Shown here piece by piece: positions 1 to 34,012 of a stretch of DNA of 42,257 nucleotides. The stretch is from an uncultured Oscillospiraceae bacterium. GTDB taxonomy: Bacteria > Bacillota > Clostridia > Oscillospirales > Oscillospiraceae. The notes beneath the pieces were generated by a model. The model searched no databases. It saw only the letters and a program-made list of their open reading frames with translations, and was not told the DNA's origin. The stretch covers positions 1-42,257 of the forward strand of contig CANQDL010000006.1 of NCBI GenBank assembly GCA_947591105.1, given 5' to 3'. The number at the start of each line of letters is the position of its first letter. Position 1 is the first letter of the stretch. The translations under genes were made by a program, and so were the position numbers.

Positions 1-27
1 GCCCCTGCGGGGTGTGAGTCGTCAGAG

Positions 28-105
28 CAAGATTCTACCATGGGCCCAAAATTCGCTCTGCGCTCATTTTTGCCCCACGGAATCTTGTTGGGGAGTGCCT
101 TCCCC
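28..105. other. candidate oriT (nested inverted repeats upstream of mobC)
   Basis: An 8-bp perfect inverted repeat, CAAGATTC at 28-35 and GAATCTTG at 80-87, encloses a second imperfect pair, TGGGCCCAAAA near 40-50 and TTTTTGCCCCA near 68-78. A small GGGGA/TCCCC hairpin follows at 90-105. Nested inverted repeats just upstream of a mobC gene are the usual layout of a MOB-P-type transfer origin. The nick site cannot be named from sequence alone. The rest of 1-290 is GC-rich and shows no convincing gene. Confidence 0.35.
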
Positions 106-290
106 AAACCCTGCTTGTCGTCGTCGCAAGCTCCACATCCCTTGCTTCGCCGCAAGCGGCAAAGCTCGTCCGTTCCGCTGCTCCTCCTCTCCCCATCGCA
201 AACGCTCCGCTGGTTTGCGCTGGGGGCCCCATACCGGCTTGTTTGCTCATTTTTCAAATTCGCTTGTCTCCAAAGGAGATCATTTTGCCC

Positions 291-689
291 ATGCCGAAAA
301 AGTACAACACGCCCCATCGGAGCATGACCGTAAAAACACGTCTTAGCAAAGAGGAATATGCCGCCTTTGAAGAAGTCGCAGCTTTGTGCGGCGTCAGCAA
401 AGCGGCATATATCCGTAAGGCTATCACCGGCGCGCTACTCAAGCCAACTATCGTGATCACGGCGGTGAATGATGAACTTCTGAAAAAACTGGATGATCTC
501 ATCACACAGTACGGCAAGATCGGCGGCAATCTCAACCAGATCGCACGGCGTCTGAACGAGTTCGGCGCGCCCTACACCGACTTGGAGAAGGAAGTCCGGG
601 ACGCGGTCGTTGACCTCGCTATGCTGAAATACGAAGTCTTGGAAAAGGTGGCGGCGACCGTTGGAAACGTTCAAACACATAAGCTCTAA
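291..689 (+). CDS. mobC: MobC-like relaxosome accessory protein
   Basis: A 132-residue protein from the ATG at 291, chosen because AAAGGAG (about 273-279) lies at good distance; an in-frame start at 243 lacks a ribosome site. The N-terminal half resembles a ribbon-helix-helix DNA-binding region (basic start, then SKEEYAAFEEVAALCGVSKAAYIRKAI). The second half holds the MobC-type stretch GGNLNQIARRLNEFG at about residues 83-97. Family members bind oriT beside the relaxase and help open the DNA for nicking. The gene overlaps the following relaxase stump by 29 bp, the usual mobC-relaxase coupling. Because that relaxase is truncated, this MobC could only work with a relaxase supplied elsewhere. 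Confidence 0.8.
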   Translation: MPKKYNTPHRSMTVKTRLSKEEYAAFEEVAALCGVSKAAYIRKAITGALLKPTIVITAVNDELLKKLDDLITQYGKIGGNLNQIARRLNEFGAPYTDLEKEVRDAVVDLAMLKYEVLEKVAATVGNVQTHKL

Positions 690-1086
690 AAACGCCCGGT
701 ACAGCGACGCGGAGAAGTACCTACTGTTTGAGCACGACGAGTTCACCATGAAGCCCATTCTGGATGACAGCGGACGGCTTATTCCAAGAACGAATTACCG
801 CATCGCTACGCTCAACTGCGACGGCCAGGATTTCGCCGTCGCGTGCATGAGGGCCAATCTGCAATATGGCAAGAACCTGGATCGGGGCGACGTGAAAACC
901 CACCACTACATACTCGGCAAGGACGCCATGAAGCGGTGCGCGATCTGCGGCAGAGCGTTTCTCCCCGGTTCCAACCGGGCGAAATATTGCGACGATTGCA
1001 GAGCCATAGCCCAGCGACGGCAAAAGGCGGAGTACGCCAAACGCCGCAGGGCGAATAGTAGAACGATAGAACAGCAAAGTTCTTGA
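661..1086 (+). pseudogene. relaxase N-terminal stump fused in frame to a zinc-ribbon ORF
   Basis: Translation starts at a TTG (661) inside mobC, with AAGGTGG upstream. Residues 1 to about 82 match the start of MOB-P/MobA-type relaxases from gut Firmicutes: TFKHISSKNARY, FEHDEFTMKP, RIATLNCDGQDFAVACMRANLQYGKN and the HHY metal-site motif. At about residue 83, where the relaxase should continue for several hundred residues, the sequence becomes a short basic protein with CAICG and CDDC pairs, a zinc-ribbon look. The latter has its own possible ATG at 928 after AAGGA. The simplest reading is a deletion that removed most of the relaxase and joined two ORFs. The catalytic core is incomplete, so no nicking activity is expected. 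The zinc ribbon may still be made as a 52-residue protein. Confidence 0.7.
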
Positions 1087-1189
1087 ATCTGCAAGGCTTT
1101 CCGGGTGCAAAACCCGGCGGGGTGGCATCCTTGTACCCCCTGCCCACAGATCCAGGCTTTAGACTATATCAGAAAGGAGAGAGCAGAAC

Positions 1190-1216
1190 ATGACAACGTT
1201 CATCCATCACTACTAG
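1190..1216 (+). other. possible 8-codon leader ORF
   Basis: ATG ACA ACG TTC ATC CAT CAC TAC TAG follows a strong AAAGGAG at 1173-1179, and ends 25 bp before the 59-residue ORF. It may be a translational leader, or a remnant start after a deletion. No function can be assigned. Confidence 0.25.
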
Positions 1217-1241
1217 AATAGCGCCACATAGGAGGTAAGAA

Positions 1242-1421
1242 TTGGGTCGTAGGAAAAAGCTTATAAACGACACCAACATCCCGCAGCACGAGATCGAAAA
1301 GCTCGCTCGGTGCTTCCTGCCGGACATCCTCGCGTTTTATGAGAGCGACGAGGGCCAGCGGGAGTTCGCAGCGTGGAAAGCCCAGCGGGAAGAAAGACAC
1401 CTCCAAGACACCAGGGCGTAA
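1242..1421 (+). CDS. 59-residue mobile-element protein, unknown function
   Basis: Starts at TTG 1242, seven bases after GGAGG (1231-1235), and ends at TAA 1419-1421. The 59-residue product is charged and helical-looking: basic start GRRKKLIND, centre HEIEKLARCFLPDILAFYES, then a Glu/Arg-rich tail. From memory, very similar small ORFs sit just upstream of recombinase genes in Firmicutes integrative elements, but their function is unknown to me. Here the next gene is instead an AT-rich ATPase, which suggests cargo replaced or was inserted beside the recombination module. It is too short for most gene finders and has a non-ATG start. Confidence 0.6.
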   Translation: MGRRKKLINDTNIPQHEIEKLARCFLPDILAFYESDEGQREFAAWKAQREERHLQDTRA

Positions 1422-1429
1422 TAACGCCA

Positions 1430-1457
1430 GCGGCGGCAGTCAAGTGACTGCCGCCGC
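1430..1457. repeat. perfect 28-bp palindrome
   Basis: GCGGCGGCAGTCA (1430-1442) is followed by AG and its exact reverse complement (1445-1457). It lies 8 bp after the 59-residue ORF. No T-run follows, so it is not a standard terminator. It sits at the point where composition changes from GC-rich element DNA to the AT-rich ATPase gene. Confidence 0.7.
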
Positions 1458-1502
1458 AATAATGACCAATATGCCAGTTTAATGCTTTAGAAATGTGTTC
1501 CA

Positions 1503-1531
1503 TTGCATCCACAAGCGGTTTGTGGTATTAT
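1503..1531 (+). promoter_or_regulatory. sigma-A promoter of the OLD-like ATPase gene
   Basis: TTGCAT at 1503-1508 and TATTAT at 1526-1531 are separated by 17 bp. The predicted start is about 25 bp before the gene. The cargo gene therefore carries its own promoter. Confidence 0.6.
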
Positions 1532-1563
1532 TGGGAAAACTTTGAAATCAGGAGGCGGATATA

Positions 1564-3078
1564 ATGAACATTCAAGAGACCATTGGTGCATTGCACAATA
1601 TGTATTTGCCTACAAATAGATACAATACATATGGCGACGTCCTCCTGAAAATGAATATTAACGGAATAAGAGGCCTGTCAACTGTTATAAATTTTGATTT
1701 TCCTATAACAGTAATCACAGGGAAAAACGGATCGGGCAAGAGCACAATAGCCCAGTTGGCACTGTGTTGTTATCAATACAAACGGCCAGGAGAAACACAT
1801 CGAAATCCTGAGGATTACTATACGTTAGGCAACTTTTTTATTAGATCAAATCTCGATCCGCATCCGTATGCTGACGATGCCTATTTAAGTTATACATATG
1901 CAACATCATCAGAGGCAGACAATTCCGGGCAATTGTCTTTGGATGGGTTTAATTCTGAGGGCGATTGCCCAGCCAGAACGCGTATTATTAAAAAAGGAAG
2001 CACAAAATGGAGAGGATATTCTGAACGGCCAAATAGAAAGTGTATCTATTTTGGCATGGGCTTCTTTGTGCCCCACCATGAGATGGGTAGCCGGATATAT
2101 TTAGATCCAACAACAAAAATTAGAAACAAGCGAGGCTTTAGTTCTGAAGCTAAGAAAACAGCTGCCCAGATTCTTGGAACGACGTATCAGAGCCTAGAAG
2201 TAGCAACGATAGAGAATCAATCTAAACGAGCTCAAATGGGATTTGCATCTCGGTTCAATGCTACATATTCAGAGAACCATATGGGATGCGGTGAAGGGCG
2301 GCTAATCAGAATGGTTGACGCACTTGAATCAGCTCCAGAGCGTAGCCTTGTTGTCATTGAAGAGCCTGAAACAGCTCTACATCAGGACGCACAGCATCAA
2401 TTGGCCTGTTATTTTTTAGATGTCTGCAAGAGAAAGCGCCATCAACTTATTATCACTACCCATTCACCATCTATTATCGAAGTGATGCCCATGGAGGCGC
2501 GAAAGAAAATAGAGCGCACCGACACGGCAACAACCGTTGAAAACAATCCTACGATTGCAGAAATAGTTGCTCACCTGTCAGATGGCCATCATAAGACTCT
2601 CCTCATTTATGTTGAAGATCGTTTCTCGGAGCAACTACTTATAGAAATTATCAGAAAATATGCAGATGAGTTTTCACAGGCCATTTCAATCGCCGCTGTT
2701 GGGAACAAAGACGATGTTGCAAAGGCTGTAGATTACACTAACCATCACTTGAGGCTACATGCAATCGGCATTAGAGATGAGGAGAAAACTGCGGAGCCCA
2801 CAAAAAGAATCTTTGCCTATCCATCTAACCAAGCGCCAGAGAGTGAGGTTTTTATGGATTCAGGCGTTACTAGGTTTTTCTTAGAGCGGTATAAAATCAA
2901 TTTATCAGAATTTCTAGGAGCTATTGACGACCATCATAACTACCCAGATCGTATAGCACGCCGTTGCAATCTGAAAGAAGATGCTGTCATCTTACAGGGA
3001 ATTCAAGCGTATCTTGACAACCAAAACCCTGAAAGATTTTACCCCTTACTAAACAGCATTAAGAGCCAATGTCCTTAA
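1564..3078 (+). CDS. OLD-like AAA ATPase with TOPRIM-like C-terminal half, probable defence protein
   Basis: A 504-residue protein with AGGAGG about 9 bp before the ATG. Seen in it: a Walker A motif GKNGSGKST at residues 53-61, an ABC-signature-like MGCGEGR near 240, a Walker B/glutamate motif VVIEEPETALH near 262-272, and a switch histidine in ITTHSPSI near 298. The C-terminal third has a TOPRIM-like pattern: an acidic cluster YVEDRFSEQLL near 343 and GIRDEE near 402. This order matches OLD-family and AAA_15/21 ATPases, several of which act in phage defence (OLD, Gabija GajA, PARIS AriA). The TOPRIM acidic residues are imperfect, so nuclease activity is uncertain. No partner gene (helicase, reverse transcriptase or AriB-like) follows. 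The gene is clearly AT-rich beside its neighbours and has its own promoter, both signs of transfer. It lies in a decayed mobilizable element. Confidence 0.75.
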   Translation: MNIQETIGALHNMYLPTNRYNTYGDVLLKMNINGIRGLSTVINFDFPITVITGKNGSGKSTIAQLALCCYQYKRPGETHRNPEDYYTLGNFFIRSNLDPHPYADDAYLSYTYATSSEADNSGQLSLDGFNSEGDCPARTRIIKKGSTKWRGYSERPNRKCIYFGMGFFVPHHEMGSRIYLDPTTKIRNKRGFSSEAKKTAAQILGTTYQSLEVATIENQSKRAQMGFASRFNATYSENHMGCGEGRLIRMVDALESAPERSLVVIEEPETALHQDAQHQLACYFLDVCKRKRHQLIITTHSPSIIEVMPMEARKKIERTDTATTVENNPTIAEIVAHLSDGHHKTLLIYVEDRFSEQLLIEIIRKYADEFSQAISIAAVGNKDDVAKAVDYTNHHLRLHAIGIRDEEKTAEPTKRIFAYPSNQAPESEVFMDSGVTRFFLERYKINLSEFLGAIDDHHNYPDRIARRCNLKEDAVILQGIQAYLDNQNPERFYPLLNSIKSQCP

Positions 3079-3229
3079 AACTTACGATAGAACCGTCAGT
3101 ATTATCTCCTAGAGCTTTTTGATAGGTGCTCATGTCTTTTTCTTCCTCGGTCCCCTTGGCTTCGATTCCGGTCTCTTTCGTACCCCGTTCCTGAAGTACC
3201 TCGCCTCATACGGCTCAAACCAAAACACA

Positions 3230-3287
3230 AGTCCGAACCCATCGCCTACGGGATATGGTCCCACAGGTCTTGGGTTCGGATTATGTT
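3230..3287 (-). terminator. candidate terminator or element-end inverted repeat beside tRNA-Leu
   Basis: Arms AGTCCGAACCC and GGGTTCGGATT pair across a loop of about 34 bases. On the minus strand the structure begins within 10 bases of the tRNA CCA end and is followed by GTGTTTTGG, so it could end tRNA-Leu transcription. It could equally be part of an integration site. The span 3079-3290 otherwise holds no supported gene. Confidence 0.35.
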
Positions 3288-3291
3288 GGTT

Positions 3292-3378
3292 TGGTGCCGG
3301 TGGCGGGGGTCGAACCCGCACGGTGTCGCCACCGCCGGATTTTGAGTCCGGTACGTCTGCCAATTCCATCACACCGGC
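3292..3378 (-). tRNA. tRNA-Leu(CAA), CCA encoded
   Basis: On the minus strand the 87-nt sequence starts GCCGGTGTGATGG and ends CACCGGCACCA. The acceptor arms GCCGGTG and CACCGGC pair fully. The anticodon loop CTCAAAA gives anticodon CAA. A long variable arm (GGTGGCGACACC) and a GGTTCGACCCC T-arm are present, as expected for a class II tRNA. Its 3' end faces the decayed mobile element, a common insertion target. Confidence 0.95.
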
Positions 3379-3380
3379 AT

Positions 3381-3434
3381 GGTGTACGGCGGTCGTACAC
3401 CGGCTATTATACATGGTACCCCGCCGGAAATCAA
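3381..3434 (-). promoter_or_regulatory. tRNA-Leu promoter with leader hairpin
   Basis: On the minus strand TTGATT (3434-3429) and TATAAT (3411-3406) are 17 bp apart. Between promoter and tRNA lies a perfect 8-bp hairpin, GGTGTACG/CGTACACC, at 3381-3401, ending 2 bases before the mature 5' end. Confidence 0.7.
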
Positions 3435-3507
3435 GTGCTTTCCGGTCTGGCGGCGGGCGTGGATCTGCTTGGCCTCCGGGCGCTGCCATATGCGGCGCGG
3501 CATTTGC

Positions 3508-3536
3508 TTGTACTTCTCCGGCCGACATGCTATAAT
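3508..3536 (+). promoter_or_regulatory. uvrB promoter
   Basis: TTGTAC at 3508-3513 and TATAAT at 3531-3536 have 17-bp spacing, with an extended -10 TG at 3528-3529. No LexA-type palindrome is obvious. Confidence 0.75.
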
Positions 3537-3567
3537 TATTCTTCAGCAATCGCAAGGAGGTCATGCC

Positions 3568-5544
3568 ATGGAGAGCCGGCCCTTCAAGGTCGTATCGCCC
3601 TATGAGCCCGCCGGGGATCAGCCAGAGGCCATCGACGCGCTGGCGGCGGGACTGGAAAACGGCATAGAGGAGCAGGTGCTGCTGGGCGTCACCGGCTCCG
3701 GCAAGACCTATACCATGGCCAAGGTCATTGAGCGCATCCAGCGGCCCACCCTGGTGCTGGCCCACAACAAGACCCTGGCCGCCCAGCTGTGCGCGGAGTT
3801 TCGCCAGTTCTTCCCGGACAACGCGGTGGAGTACTTTGTCTCCTACTACGATTACTACCAGCCGGAGGCCTACATCCCCCACACGGACACGTTCATTGAA
3901 AAGGATTCCTCCATCAACGACGAGATCGACCGGCTGCGTCTGTCCGCCACCGCGTCGCTGCTGGAGCGGCGGGACGTGATCGTGGTCAGCTCCGTCTCCT
4001 GCATTTACGGCCTGGGCGAGCCGGACGACTTCGCCGCCATGATGGTCACCCTGCGGGTAGGGATGGAGATCAAGATCGAAGATCTGCTCATGCGCCTGGT
4101 GAACATCCGCTATGAGCGTAACGACGTCGCCTTCGAGCGCAACAAGTTCCGTGTCCGGGGGGACACGGTGGAGATCTGGCCGGCCTACTGGAAGGATACC
4201 GCCATTCGGGTGGAGTTTTTCGGCGACGAGATCGACCGGATCAGCGAGATCAACGCCGTCTCCGGGGCGCCTCTGCGGCGGCTAAACAACATCCCCGTCT
4301 GGCCCGCCACCCACTACGTGACCCCCAAGGAGAAGATGGAGGCGGCCATTGTGGAGATACGCCGGGAGCTTGAGGAACGGGTGGCGTGGTTTGAGCAGAA
4401 CGGCCGGCTTCTGGAGGCCCAGCGCATCCGGCAGCGGACGGAATATGATATTGAGATGATGCAGGAGCTGGGCTACTGCTCCGGCATCGAGAACTACTCC
4501 CGAATCATCTCCGGCCGGGCGCCGGGCAGCGCCCCCATGACGCTGCTGGACTACTTCCCAAAGGATTTTGTGCTGTTTGTGGACGAGAGCCACGTGACCC
4601 TGCCCCAGGTGCGGGCCATGTACAAGGGCGACTTCAGCCGGAAGCAGACGCTGGTGGAGTACGGCTTCCGCCTGCCCTCCGCCTTTGACAACCGGCCGCT
4701 GAAATTCCCGGAATTCACCCAGCGGCTCAACCAGGTCATATACGTGTCCGCCACGCCGGCGGAGTACGAGCGCAGCCGGGCCGGGCAGATCGCCGAGCAG
4801 GTCATCCGGCCCACCGGACTGCTCGACCCGGAGATCATCGTCCGGCCTGTGGAGGGGCAGATTGACGATCTCATCGGCGAGATCAACGGCCGCATCGCCA
4901 AGAACCAGCGCACCCTGGTCACCACGCTGACCGTGAAGATGGCGGAGGATCTGACCGCGTATCTGACCGACGCGGGGATACGCAGCCGGTATCTGCACCA
5001 CAACATCGGCTCCATTGAGCGGATGGAGATCATACGGGATATGCGTTTGGGCCACTTTGACGTGCTGGTGGGAATCAACCTGCTGCGGGAGGGCCTGGAC
5101 TTGCCGGAGGTGTCCCTGGTGGCCATTTTGGACGCGGACAAGGAGGGCTTTCTCCGGTCGGAGACCAGCCTGATCCAGACCGTGGGCCGGGCCGCCCGGA
5201 ACGCGGAGGGCACGGTCATTATGTACGCGGACACGGTGACCCCCTCCATGGACGCCTGCATCCGGGAGACGGAGCGCCGCCGGAAAAAGCAGCAGGCCTA
5301 TAACCAGGCCCACGGCATCGTGCCCCAGACCATCATCAAGAGCGTGAAGGACATGATGGAGATATCTGACGGGGCGGAGGAGGCCAAGGCCGTCACCGCC
5401 GCGGGCATCAAGATGACCGCCGCCGAGCGCAAGGCGGAGATCGAGAAGCTGGAAAAGCAGATGCGCAAGGCCGCCCAGATGCTGGAGTTCGAATATGCCG
5501 CCGTCATCCGCGACCGGCTGGTCAAGCTCCGGGGAGAGAAATAA
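3568..5544 (+). CDS. uvrB: UvrABC excinuclease subunit B
   Basis: A 658-residue protein, the normal UvrB length. The ATG at 3568 follows AAGGAGG (about 3554-3560); longer in-frame starts upstream run across the promoter and tRNA. Domains in order: Walker A GVTGSGKT at residues 40-47; the beta-hairpin region with [12 protein letters not shown] near 93-105; DESH box [12 protein letters not shown] near 336; helicase motifs V and VI ([16 protein letters not shown] and QTVGRAARN); and a C-terminal UVR motif that binds UvrC. UvrB verifies lesions delivered by UvrA and loads UvrC in nucleotide excision repair. It has its own promoter and terminator; no uvrA or uvrC lies nearby. Confidence 0.97.
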
Positions 5545-5554
5545 CGGCAAAAAG

Positions 5555-5592
5555 CGCCGCCTCCGAAAAAGGAGGCGGCGTATGTTATTTTT
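5555..5592. terminator. bidirectional terminator between uvrB and the diacylglycerol kinase gene
   Basis: A perfect 10-bp stem CGCCGCCTCC/GGAGGCGGCG (5555-5580) has a GAAAAA loop and a T-rich tail ending TTATTTTTT. The other strand has GCTTTTTGCC after the stem, so it can serve both converging genes. Confidence 0.85.
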
Positions 5593-6433
5593 TCGCGCTG
5601 TAAGTGGTGACCCGTTCCAACGGCTCCCCATCCAGGTTGATGGCGCCGGGGCGGTCGAAGCGGACGGATATCTCCCGGCCGAAACGCACGTCGCACTGGG
5701 GCATGTGCTCATGGCTGCCGCTGAGGACTTTCGGCAGCTTCAGCAGCGCCCTGAACCGGCCCAGGCCGAACAGCACCACGCAGCACAGCTCCTGGCCGGT
5801 TCGATCCTGCCGGGGCGCCAGCTTCTGGCCGCCGCCCACGTACCGGCCGTTGAACACGGAGGCCACCCACACCCGGTCGTAGGTCTTGCTCTGGCCGTCC
5901 ACCGTGACGGTGGCGTTTGCCACGTGGTAATCCCGAAACACCAGCCGTAGCGCCAGGGCGATGTAGTTGACCGGCCGGCCCAGCCGGGCCTTCTCCTGCT
6001 CCCCCAGCTCGCACACCTGGCCGTCCAGACCGAAGCTGACGTTGTTCAAAAAGCGCTGGGTGCCATGGACGGTCTTAACTGTGGGAAGGTTTCCTATGTA
6101 TTTATTGAAAAGAACCAGCTGCTCCTGGCTGCCCTCCAGCACGTCCCGGAGAAAGTCGTTGCCCGTGCCCATGCGCCACACGTATACCGGCGCGGCGGGC
6201 ACCCGTCCGTCCAGGGCGTTGATGAGATAGTGCAGCGTGCCGTCCCCGCCGCACACGATGGCCTCGTCCTCCGGGGAGAGGCCCATGAGCAGGGCGGCGG
6301 CGTCCTGCTTGGTCACGTCCGCCAGCACCGGCGTCTGCCCGGGGCGGCGCTGGCCGGCGGCGGCGATCACCCCGTCCAGGCCCTCGGTGCCCTTGCCGTT
6401 GTTCGCAAGGGGATTGTAGAGAATATACACCAT
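5585..6433 (-). CDS. diacylglycerol kinase family lipid kinase
   Basis: A 282-residue protein from ATG 6433, preceded by a modest GAAAGAGAG; upstream extension crosses the promoter. The N-terminal catalytic domain (DAGK_cat) begins VYILYNPLANNGKG and holds the nucleotide-binding CGGDGTLHYLINAL near residues 59-72. MGTGNDFLRDV near 85 and the C-terminal beta-rich lobe ending INLDGEP are typical of YegS/DgkB-type enzymes. These phosphorylate diacylglycerol or related lipids at the membrane surface; DgkB recycles diacylglycerol released by lipoteichoic-acid-type polymer synthesis. The exact substrate is not shown by sequence. It stands alone with its own promoter. Confidence 0.85.
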   Translation of the reverse strand: MVYILYNPLANNGKGTEGLDGVIAAAGQRRPGQTPVLADVTKQDAAALLMGLSPEDEAIVCGGDGTLHYLINALDGRVPAAPVYVWRMGTGNDFLRDVLEGSQEQLVLFNKYIGNLPTVKTVHGTQRFLNNVSFGLDGQVCELGEQEKARLGRPVNYIALALRLVFRDYHVANATVTVDGQSKTYDRVWVASVFNGRYVGGGQKLAPRQDRTGQELCCVVLFGLGRFRALLKLPKVLSGSHEHMPQCDVRFGREISVRFDRPGAINLDGEPLERVTTYSAKK

Positions 6434-32938: not shown

Positions 32939-33146
32939 GCTCCCCGACAAAGGGGAAGTTGTCGAAGTCACCGCCAGCCCCACAGCCTCCCCTGTGCAAG
33001 GGGAGGGTGCCGAGCGTAGCGAGGAGGAGGGGTTGTTACGGAGCAGTAGAATCAACATGACAATCCCTCAGTCAGCGCTTCGCGCTGCCAGCTCCCTTTA
33101 CACAAGGGAGCCATAAGTTGTGCGCCATAGGCGCGACAAAGGGGAA
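32939..33146. repeat. long repeat with palindromic core, copy 2
   Basis: Contains CTCCCCGACAAA, GGGAAGTTGTCGAAGTCACC, a palindromic core (about 32985-33112) with arms CCTCCCCTGTGCAAGGGGAGG and GCTCCCTTTACACAAGGGAGC, and the tail ATAAGTTGTGCGCCATAGGC. Nearly the same order recurs at 33826-34012, as direct repeats flanking the AT-rich gene. Confidence 0.8.
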
Positions 33147-33160
33147 TTTTTGAAGATACG

Positions 33161-33781
33161 CTACCATGGAAAAATTAAATAGAACACTAAACTGCTTAAT
33201 GCAATTCCAATAATATACAGTTTTCTATGTTTTACTTTTTTGAAAAATAATACACTAAACACAACAGCCCCTATAATATCCATTAACAGCTGAAATAGGA
33301 ATGTATGATGTTCCAAAAAATAAAATGAAATTGCTATTGTTTCTGCTACTAATGCACCTACTGGTAAAGAATACAACAATGAACTTAAAACATTGTCTTT
33401 ATTCCAATAATATAAAACAAAAGCTGCTATTGCACACAGAATAGAAAGCAAAGTAAATAGTATAAACAAAGATTTACGGAATCCACCTGAAAATAATGGG
33501 ATAAACATTCCTAATATTGCCTGTAATCCGTAGAAACTCAATGTCATTCCAAACATATATAAGAATGAACTAATACCTGCACATTTATTTGAAGTGCTTA
33601 ATAAAACAATTATTGTATTTGTAATAATCCAAAATCCCAATAATGTTTGAATTGACGAAAATCCCCACAAAGAGTCTAAAGAGCAATAATCTAACAATCT
33701 ACATATACATCCTATAAATATACCAACTAAAAACACTATACTATAAGACTTTAATGTATGGCTTAATTTTATATTTTTCAT
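33161..33781 (-). CDS. AT-rich integral membrane protein, unknown function
   Basis: A 206-residue protein from ATG 33781. Six hydrophobic helices are seen; between helices 1 and 2 the sequence CRLLDYCSLDSLWGFSSIQTLLGFW is striking and looks conserved. The end is basic (KKVKHRKLY) before a last helix. Base composition is strongly AT-rich, unlike every neighbour. The gene sits exactly between two long direct repeats, so it was probably acquired as a unit. I know of no assigned function; hydrophobic small-membrane families of this kind occur singly in Clostridia. Confidence 0.65.
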   Translation of the reverse strand: MKNIKLSHTLKSYSIVFLVGIFIGCICRLLDYCSLDSLWGFSSIQTLLGFWIITNTIIVLLSTSNKCAGISSFLYMFGMTLSFYGLQAILGMFIPLFSGGFRKSLFILFTLLSILCAIAAFVLYYWNKDNVLSSLLYSLPVGALVAETIAISFYFLEHHTFLFQLLMDIIGAVVFSVLFFKKVKHRKLYIIGIALSSLVFYLIFPW

Positions 33782-33825
33782 TTCAACACCCCTCTCTACA
33801 AATCCCGATTTGCCGCCCTGGTCAT

Positions 33826-34012
33826 CTCCCCGACAAACGGGAAGTTGTCGAAGTCACCGCCAGCCTAAAGCCTCCCCTGTGCAAGGGAGGTGGCCGCCAA
33901 AGGCGGCCGAAGGGGTTGTTACAATCCCTCAGTCAGCGCTTCGCGCTACCAGCTCCCTTTACACAAGGGAGCCATAAGTTGTGCGCCATAGGCGCGACAA
34001 ACGGGAAGTTGT
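33826..34012. repeat. long repeat with palindromic core, copy 3
   Basis: Same order as copy 2. In addition the 18-bp sequence CGACAAACGGGAAGTTGT occurs twice without change, at 33831-33848 and 33995-34012, bracketing the palindromic core (about 33870-33973). Confidence 0.85.

Follow-up and report, generated by a model that had tools for sequence, protein, structure and literature searches.

The window, by which we mean the whole stretch of 42,257 nucleotides analysed here from an uncultured Oscillospiraceae bacterium, opens within a decayed mobilizable element, and its first base is also base 1 of the contig, so that the remainder of the element lies beyond view. The part in view ends at a tRNA-Leu gene and comprises the following features:

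243 to 689, plus strand: MobC/NikA-like relaxosome accessory gene (Pfam NikA-like 2e-14, MobC_2 5e-8)
661 to 1086, plus strand: remnant ORF in which the start of a relaxase is joined to a cysteine-rich VLP-type tail (from comparison with relatives)
1242 to 1421, plus strand: small ORF of 59 codons at the end of the mobilization module (by eye; the DNA is conserved in relatives)
1430 to 1457: palindromic hairpin closing the mobilization module and forming the left edge of the slot (fold -27.8 kcal/mol, z -5.95)
1458 to 3136: cargo slot, holding the HEC-04 gene only (content differs between the same two edges in related genomes)
1564 to 3078, plus strand: HEC-04-family gene, 504 aa, with an N-terminal ABC-type ATPase half (about residues 1-330) and a C-terminal TOPRIM half (about residues 340-504) (ORF; PADLOC HEC-04; AlphaFold2 model; Foldseek)
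3137 to 3291: conserved right end, with a minus-strand coding-like stretch and a long hairpin (restart of homology, alignment of 11)
3292 to 3378, minus strand: tRNA-Leu (CAA), whose 3' end the element abuts (ARAGORN; Rfam tRNA)

The initial annotation had placed the 1564-3078 gene in a decayed mobilizable element beside tRNA-Leu, and both parts of this description are borne out. A MobC/NikA-like gene is present, and of the relaxase only the first 90 residues or so remain, joined to the end of the gene that follows. In relatives, about 1.53 kb separates the two halves of this 661-1086 ORF at six or more places (G012:C6, G026:C20, G026:C6, G030:C56, G033:C3, G034:C11), and 0.9 kb separates them in G002:C1. 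Among eight loci with the first half, the ORF is 512-546 aa long in six, 423 aa in L086 and 315 aa in L092. One such ORF (L090, 522 aa) matches annotated plasmid relaxases and mobilization nucleases from residue 68 or 90 to residue 510, with 24-26% identity and E-values of 4e-18 to 1e-24 among the matches listed; when a relative's full-length relaxase was searched against the PDB, no match came back. For the tail half, the matching proteins carry the annotation "cysteine-rich VLP domain-containing". Only the first 90-100 or so residues of the relaxase gene are retained in the window, and it is because nearly the whole relaxase-like part has been lost that "decayed" is the right word. The module was matched in 16 of the 60 genomes searched, all of the window's genus.

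At the other end, the short stretch before the tRNA has features of its own. On the minus strand of 3140-3260, variable columns among 11 aligned sequences number 7/40, 7/41 and 30/40 by codon position, a coding-like periodicity, and translation of the stretch would give a short peptide that is very basic at one end. Just before the 3' end of the tRNA lies a near-perfect long hairpin (3217-3291) that is nearly invariant in relatives. The fold of 3200-3291 has a z-score of -6.42, and 2 of its 34 pairs covary; because there is hardly any covariation, we do not argue for an RNA role. Rfam at gathering threshold returned only the tRNA in window positions 1-6000. As judged by eye, the tRNA-Leu precedes a uvrB-like gene here (3292-5544) and sits beside a prfB-like gene in several genomes of the same genus.

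The ORF at 1564-3078 is intact over its 504 residues and is preceded by an AGGAGG ribosome-binding site (by eye); the genome holds no second copy of the gene. It had been described as AT-rich, and the two kilobases that it mostly covers do have a G+C content of 0.47 and 0.43, against 0.52-0.71 in the remaining window, save 0.39 at 33-34 kb and 0.49 at 41-42 kb. The former of these two exceptions (33001-34000) is a second sharp dip, about 1 kb from a tRNA-Pro, and is possibly another insertion. Pfam matches to AAA_15 (8e-21) and AAA_21 (5e-19) agree with the proposed OLD/AAA identity. The suggestion that the gene has its own promoter was not confirmed: a promoter scan of 1050-3560 gave 5 sites where 4.7 are expected, with none at the scan threshold on the plus strand of 1460-1563. 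A 17-base palindrome lies upstream of the gene at 1509-1525, and no counterpart was noticed by eye upstream of eight homologues.

The edges of the slot were defined by comparison with 17 places (L096-L112) in 12 genomes of the same genus. These were fetched from 20 places outside the window's own genome that reach the end of the module (query end at least 1172); of the three left out, one lies at the end of a contig, another stops at 1172 and the third measures 47 bases. Homology to the module ends just after the hairpin, at window positions 1456-1465 and thus within 10 bases, in 16 of the 17 loci. The exception is L107, where it ends inside the hairpin; its stem differs yet still pairs, as do those of L103 and L108 (by eye). 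Of the 17 loci, 11 show the right side: ten of them regain homology at 3132-3139, and one at 3203. Eight of these 11 loci contain a tRNA gene, namely tRNA-Leu with anticodon CAA (4), TAA (2) or CAG (1) and tRNA-Arg CCG (1), and none was called in L097, L103 or L104. Between the two edges, the ten loci in which both are clear carry 558 to 3632 bases of cargo; the window carries 1678.

PADLOC and Pfam scans were run on 30 cargo proteins, drawn from 13 of the 17 loci; the unscanned remainder comprises L103, L105 (the same ATPase as L104, by eye), L110, L112 and smaller or more distant ORFs elsewhere. Strong PADLOC matches (E <= 1e-15) occur in seven of the 13 scanned loci, a raw count with no control for the background rate: AbiLi with AbiLii (L099), AbiLi (L100), a type II methyltransferase with Vsr (L101), ThsB with PDC-M50A (L102), PD-Lambda-2_B (L108, L109) and the PDC-M60C phosphorylase (L111). 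Three loci gave weaker matches of 1e-10 to 1e-13 (L097, L106, L107), and the scanned cargo of L096, L098 and L104 gave no PADLOC match. In four of the seven strong loci (L100, L101, L102, L108) the right edge is out of view, and the L101 methyltransferase, which a HEPN gene and some 2.4 kb separate from the left edge, may or may not belong to the slot. The eight scanned loci with both edges divide into three with strong matches, two with weak ones and three with none. By eye, the slots of two genomes (L104:1234-2724 and L105:3571-5061) are filled by near-identical P-loop proteins of 496 aa; this protein, which has no PADLOC match in L104, is a candidate for a new defence gene.

Defence hotspots are known in mobile elements, among them P2/P4 satellites and genomic islands. 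The slot of the window resembles them in its fixed edges and exchangeable defence cargo; unlike them, it forms the tail end of a mobilization module in Oscillospiraceae, next to tRNA-Leu or tRNA-Arg. We regard this fixed slot, between the hairpin and the tRNA-side end, as new here; among the papers listed by literature searches, no description of it was noticed, which is weak evidence of absence.

The family of the window protein is given by its best PADLOC model, HEC-04 (PDLC04149; E 8e-52, 174 bits, against 76 bits for the runner-up), the models being ranked by score and PADLOC's own calling thresholds not applied. HEC-04 is also the top model for all eight relatives scanned and for IbfA of the IncI1 plasmid R64. 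The available text of PMC12111858 describes HEC-04 as a single-gene system in which an ABC ATPase is fused to TOPRIM, protecting E. coli from T4 and T5 and not from T7 or lambda; it also reports deletion and complementation experiments in which ibfA by itself reduced phage plating. The window protein likewise joins an ABC-type ATPase and a TOPRIM domain in one chain, as profiles, model and fold search agree, and like HEC-04/IbfA (R64, pUA1135) it is encoded by a single gene on mobile DNA. The two are distant relatives, R64 IbfA having only 27% identity to the window protein over 295 aligned columns, and they differ in two further respects: IbfA keeps a second catalytic aspartate that the window's clade lacks, and the window gene, unlike HEC-04/IbfA, is not within an Hma system. 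We conclude that the window protein is an HEC-04-family member with a clade-specific change in a catalytic motif, carried in an exchangeable cargo slot.

The initial annotation had held that this gene does not fit the known two-gene OLD systems, and the novelty claimed for it is not supported, because single-gene OLD-like systems have already been described, to judge from the accessible portions of the sources: HEC-04/IbfA (PMC12111858), stand-alone OLD proteins as Class 1 (PMC10568477) and, more recently, the OLD-like YbjD, whose TOPRIM domain is dispensable under induced expression (PMC13261556). With Class 1 (P2 Old, Thermus scotoductus OLD, YbjD) the window gene shares its stand-alone character and the order of ATPase then TOPRIM, and the best fold match of its model is T. 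scotoductus OLD (TsOLD, 6p74). By profile, however, it is nearer HEC-04, with no Old model among the 25 best PADLOC models, and its catalytic Glu and DxD set is incomplete: E351 and D405 are kept, and the DxD reads D-E-E. Gabija GajA (Class 2) is another fold match, with the Glu and first Asp of the TOPRIM site in common by motif, but the second Asp of GajA, D434, is not kept, and the UvrD-like helicase GajB is missing from the slot, which holds no other gene; around it lie the mobilization ORFs upstream and, downstream, the tRNA-Leu followed by the uvrB-like gene (by eye). AriA of PARIS (Class 4) is among the best sequence matches of the window protein; PARIS has a separate TOPRIM gene, ariB, whereas the TOPRIM of the window sits in the same chain. 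The Class 3 retron Eco8 appears among the fold matches, but the slot has no second cargo gene such as a reverse transcriptase, and the Rfam scan of positions 1-6000 showed no ncRNA besides the tRNA.

Conserved positions were read from an alignment of 14 homologues, seven rows from the window's clade and seven others:

1720 to 1746, plus strand: Walker A, residues 53-61 (GKNGSGKST); G53, N55, G56, G58, K59 and T61 invariant in 14/14
2269 to 2295, plus strand: residues 236-244 (SENHMGCGE), which we take to be an ABC-signature-like stretch; M240, G243 and E244 invariant in 14/14
2350 to 2370, plus strand: residues 263-269 (VVIEEPE), presumably Walker B and the following Glu; E267 invariant in 14/14
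2461 to 2463, plus strand: H300, assumed from ABC ATPases to be a switch-type histidine; invariant in 14/14
2614 to 2616, plus strand: TOPRIM glutamate E351, at the end of a predicted strand (346-350); invariant in 14/14
2776 to 2784, plus strand: DxD position, D405-E406-E407; D405 invariant in 14/14, the +2 Asp replaced
2836 to 2841, plus strand: P425-E426, a third conserved acidic site; invariant in 14/14

According to the part of PMC10781630 available, the GajA site consists of E379 with D432 and D434, and we take E351 as the probable counterpart of E379 by motif, not by superposition. The aspartate at the +2 position of the DxD is present in all seven rows outside the window's clade and in none of the seven within it, where it is Glu in the window and K, A, K, Q, N and H in the six other members. 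The TOPRIM-like half had been called degenerate. This is right as far as the second Asp goes, but the description does not extend to E351, D405 and E426, which are invariant.

A structural check supports the TOPRIM-like reading of this half. In an AlphaFold2 model built from seven sequences (mean pLDDT 78.9, pTM 0.61), predicted strands 346-350, 374-378 and 399-404 alternate with helices, and E351 and D405 fall just after strands. TsOLD 6p74 (1.6e-13) heads the Foldseek matches in the PDB, followed by GajA (3.7e-12) and Eco8, with loose fits among the 50 rows listed (TMq 0.28-0.40, rmsd about 10-20 A). Also among the matches are the heads of Rad50 and SMC, with which only the ATPase is shared; for this reason, and given the loose fits, we base the TOPRIM call on strand order, motifs and HEC-04 profile taken together.

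The seven sequences without the second Asp form one clade (support 97/95), so that a single loss is enough to account for them. They come from Oscillospiraceae, from an assembly labelled "Clostridiales" and from Candidatus Scatousia (L007, unplaced in taxonomy). Two sequences outside the clade, one from the host's family (L082) and one from its class (L016), have D-G-D by eye, and the loss therefore tracks the clade and not the host group. A "clostridial" label would not suit the clade, given the unplaced L007 and the retained D-G-D of L082 and L016. The tree has long branches and weak deep forks; well supported are only the clades with the window and the IbfA-like group, and IbfA falls outside the well-supported clades of the window.

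The presence of the gene is sporadic. A true orthologue was found in two of 99 related genomes, the window's own included; the five other matches, out of seven, were short and weak and were not counted. At the level of the family, 5/400 genomes match the alignment at 1e-30 (one weakly), at that of the class 2/391 match the protein at 1e-20, and at that of the phylum 6/398 match the HEC-04 profile at 1e-20. The species collection yielded eight homologue loci, 36-63% identical. One relative, G030, has an HEC-04 homologue on a contig (L004) that is absent from the matches of the module search, and this homologue seems to be carried elsewhere than on this module. A phage collection gave one partial match, and viral contigs had no homologue, whether searched by protein or by alignment.

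Taken together, these observations make it probable that the gene, sole cargo of a fixed slot in an integrative mobilizable element beside tRNA-Leu, encodes an HEC-04-family protein that acts against phages as a single-gene system. The proposal that it is stand-alone phage-defence cargo is well supported by the HEC-04 profile, the sporadic presence and a slot that often holds defence-type genes in relatives, and a role in defence is likely.

An alternative, which we consider unlikely, is that the protein is half of a two-gene system whose partner was lost here or lies elsewhere in the genome. The partner survey proposed by the initial annotation covered nine neighbours from seven of the eight homologue loci, and no scanned family occurred at more than two of them. 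The one suggestive case is a DUF3800 gene directly beside the homologue in L004 (3940-4635) and L009 (9544-10218), the two DUF3800 proteins being 42% identical to each other. Other neighbours include DUF1016/YhcG upstream in L003 (as fragments) and L005, and a below-cutoff KilA-N match in L002; those of L007 and L008 had no Pfam match. Serine-recombinase-like genes near L002, L004 and L005 (by eye) fit mobile DNA. DUF3800 is a possible optional partner, beside distant HEC-04 homologues. Against the two-gene reading stands its presence at only 2/8 loci, on differing sides and strands, and the window's genome, 78% complete, yielded no DUF3800. Near a homologue on an E. coli plasmid there is also a DUF3800 protein, but its sequence is unrelated. 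The slot of the window itself is occupied by the HEC-04 gene alone: as had been claimed, no partner is seen, since 1458-3136 contains no further whole ORF of at least 60 aa except one nested in the gene. Among the loci seen there is no constant partner.

The target might also be plasmids or competing mobile elements instead of phages, as had been suggested at the outset. The carrier is a mobilizable element, and homologues that span at least 80% of the protein occur in 14 plasmid records. Set against this, HEC-04 and IbfA are reported in the available text of PMC12111858 to be anti-phage, and nothing in our analysis points to plasmid loss; we consider such a target improbable.

That the gene is a relic, with a decaying TOPRIM half and no remaining function, appears very unlikely. 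The missing second Asp would fit such decay, as would the lower conservation of the TOPRIM half (compared with the four nearest relatives, it is 47-53% identical and the ATPase half 64-67%) and two damaged copies, L005 with an in-frame stop and L009 split in two frames, although both of these come from metagenome assemblies. The ORF of the window is intact, however, and the DxD change is common to all seven aligned members of the clade, in which E351, D405 and E426 stay fixed. The only two estimable dN/dS ratios, both for the pair L002-L003, are 0.06 and 0.13; since dS (not dN) is saturated for nearly all pairs, they are only a rough sign of constraint. A housekeeping role is extremely unlikely: the archaeal OLD protein Cran1 indicates that OLD ATPases can serve the cell cycle (PMC12796447, from the part available), but the window gene is exchangeable cargo present in so few related genomes (2/99, and 5/400 of the family).

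If the gene is indeed a single-gene anti-phage system active in this host, its working may be pictured by analogy with OLD proteins. The ABC-type ATPase half would dimerise and keep the C-terminal TOPRIM half inactive; a putative infection cue would alter the nucleotide state and free the TOPRIM half, which might then attack DNA or tRNA, so that phage production would fail and the cell may die. Within the window's clade, the TOPRIM domain may still cut, or it may have become weakened or non-cutting. An altered TOPRIM site need not mean a dead protein, because YbjD, an OLD-like ATPase, can act without its TOPRIM domain. We tentatively propose, as a possibility somewhat short of even, that this HEC-04 branch, having lost the second Asp with E351, D405 and E426 fixed, has changed the working of its TOPRIM half, which would cut through a reduced metal site or bind without cutting, and that protection comes mainly from the ATPase, as is reported for YbjD. 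It would be one exchangeable cassette among many, carried here in a fixed and so far undescribed slot of a family of Oscillospiraceae integrative mobilizable elements at the 3' ends of tRNA-Leu and tRNA-Arg.

These results place a single-gene OLD-like defence protein, likely to act as such, in gut Oscillospiraceae. The branch lacking a catalytic residue offers a natural experiment on the need for the TOPRIM nuclease site. Because cargo in seven of the 13 scanned loci strongly matches known or candidate defence genes, the unannotated cargo found at the same edges in other genomes makes up a short list of candidate new systems.
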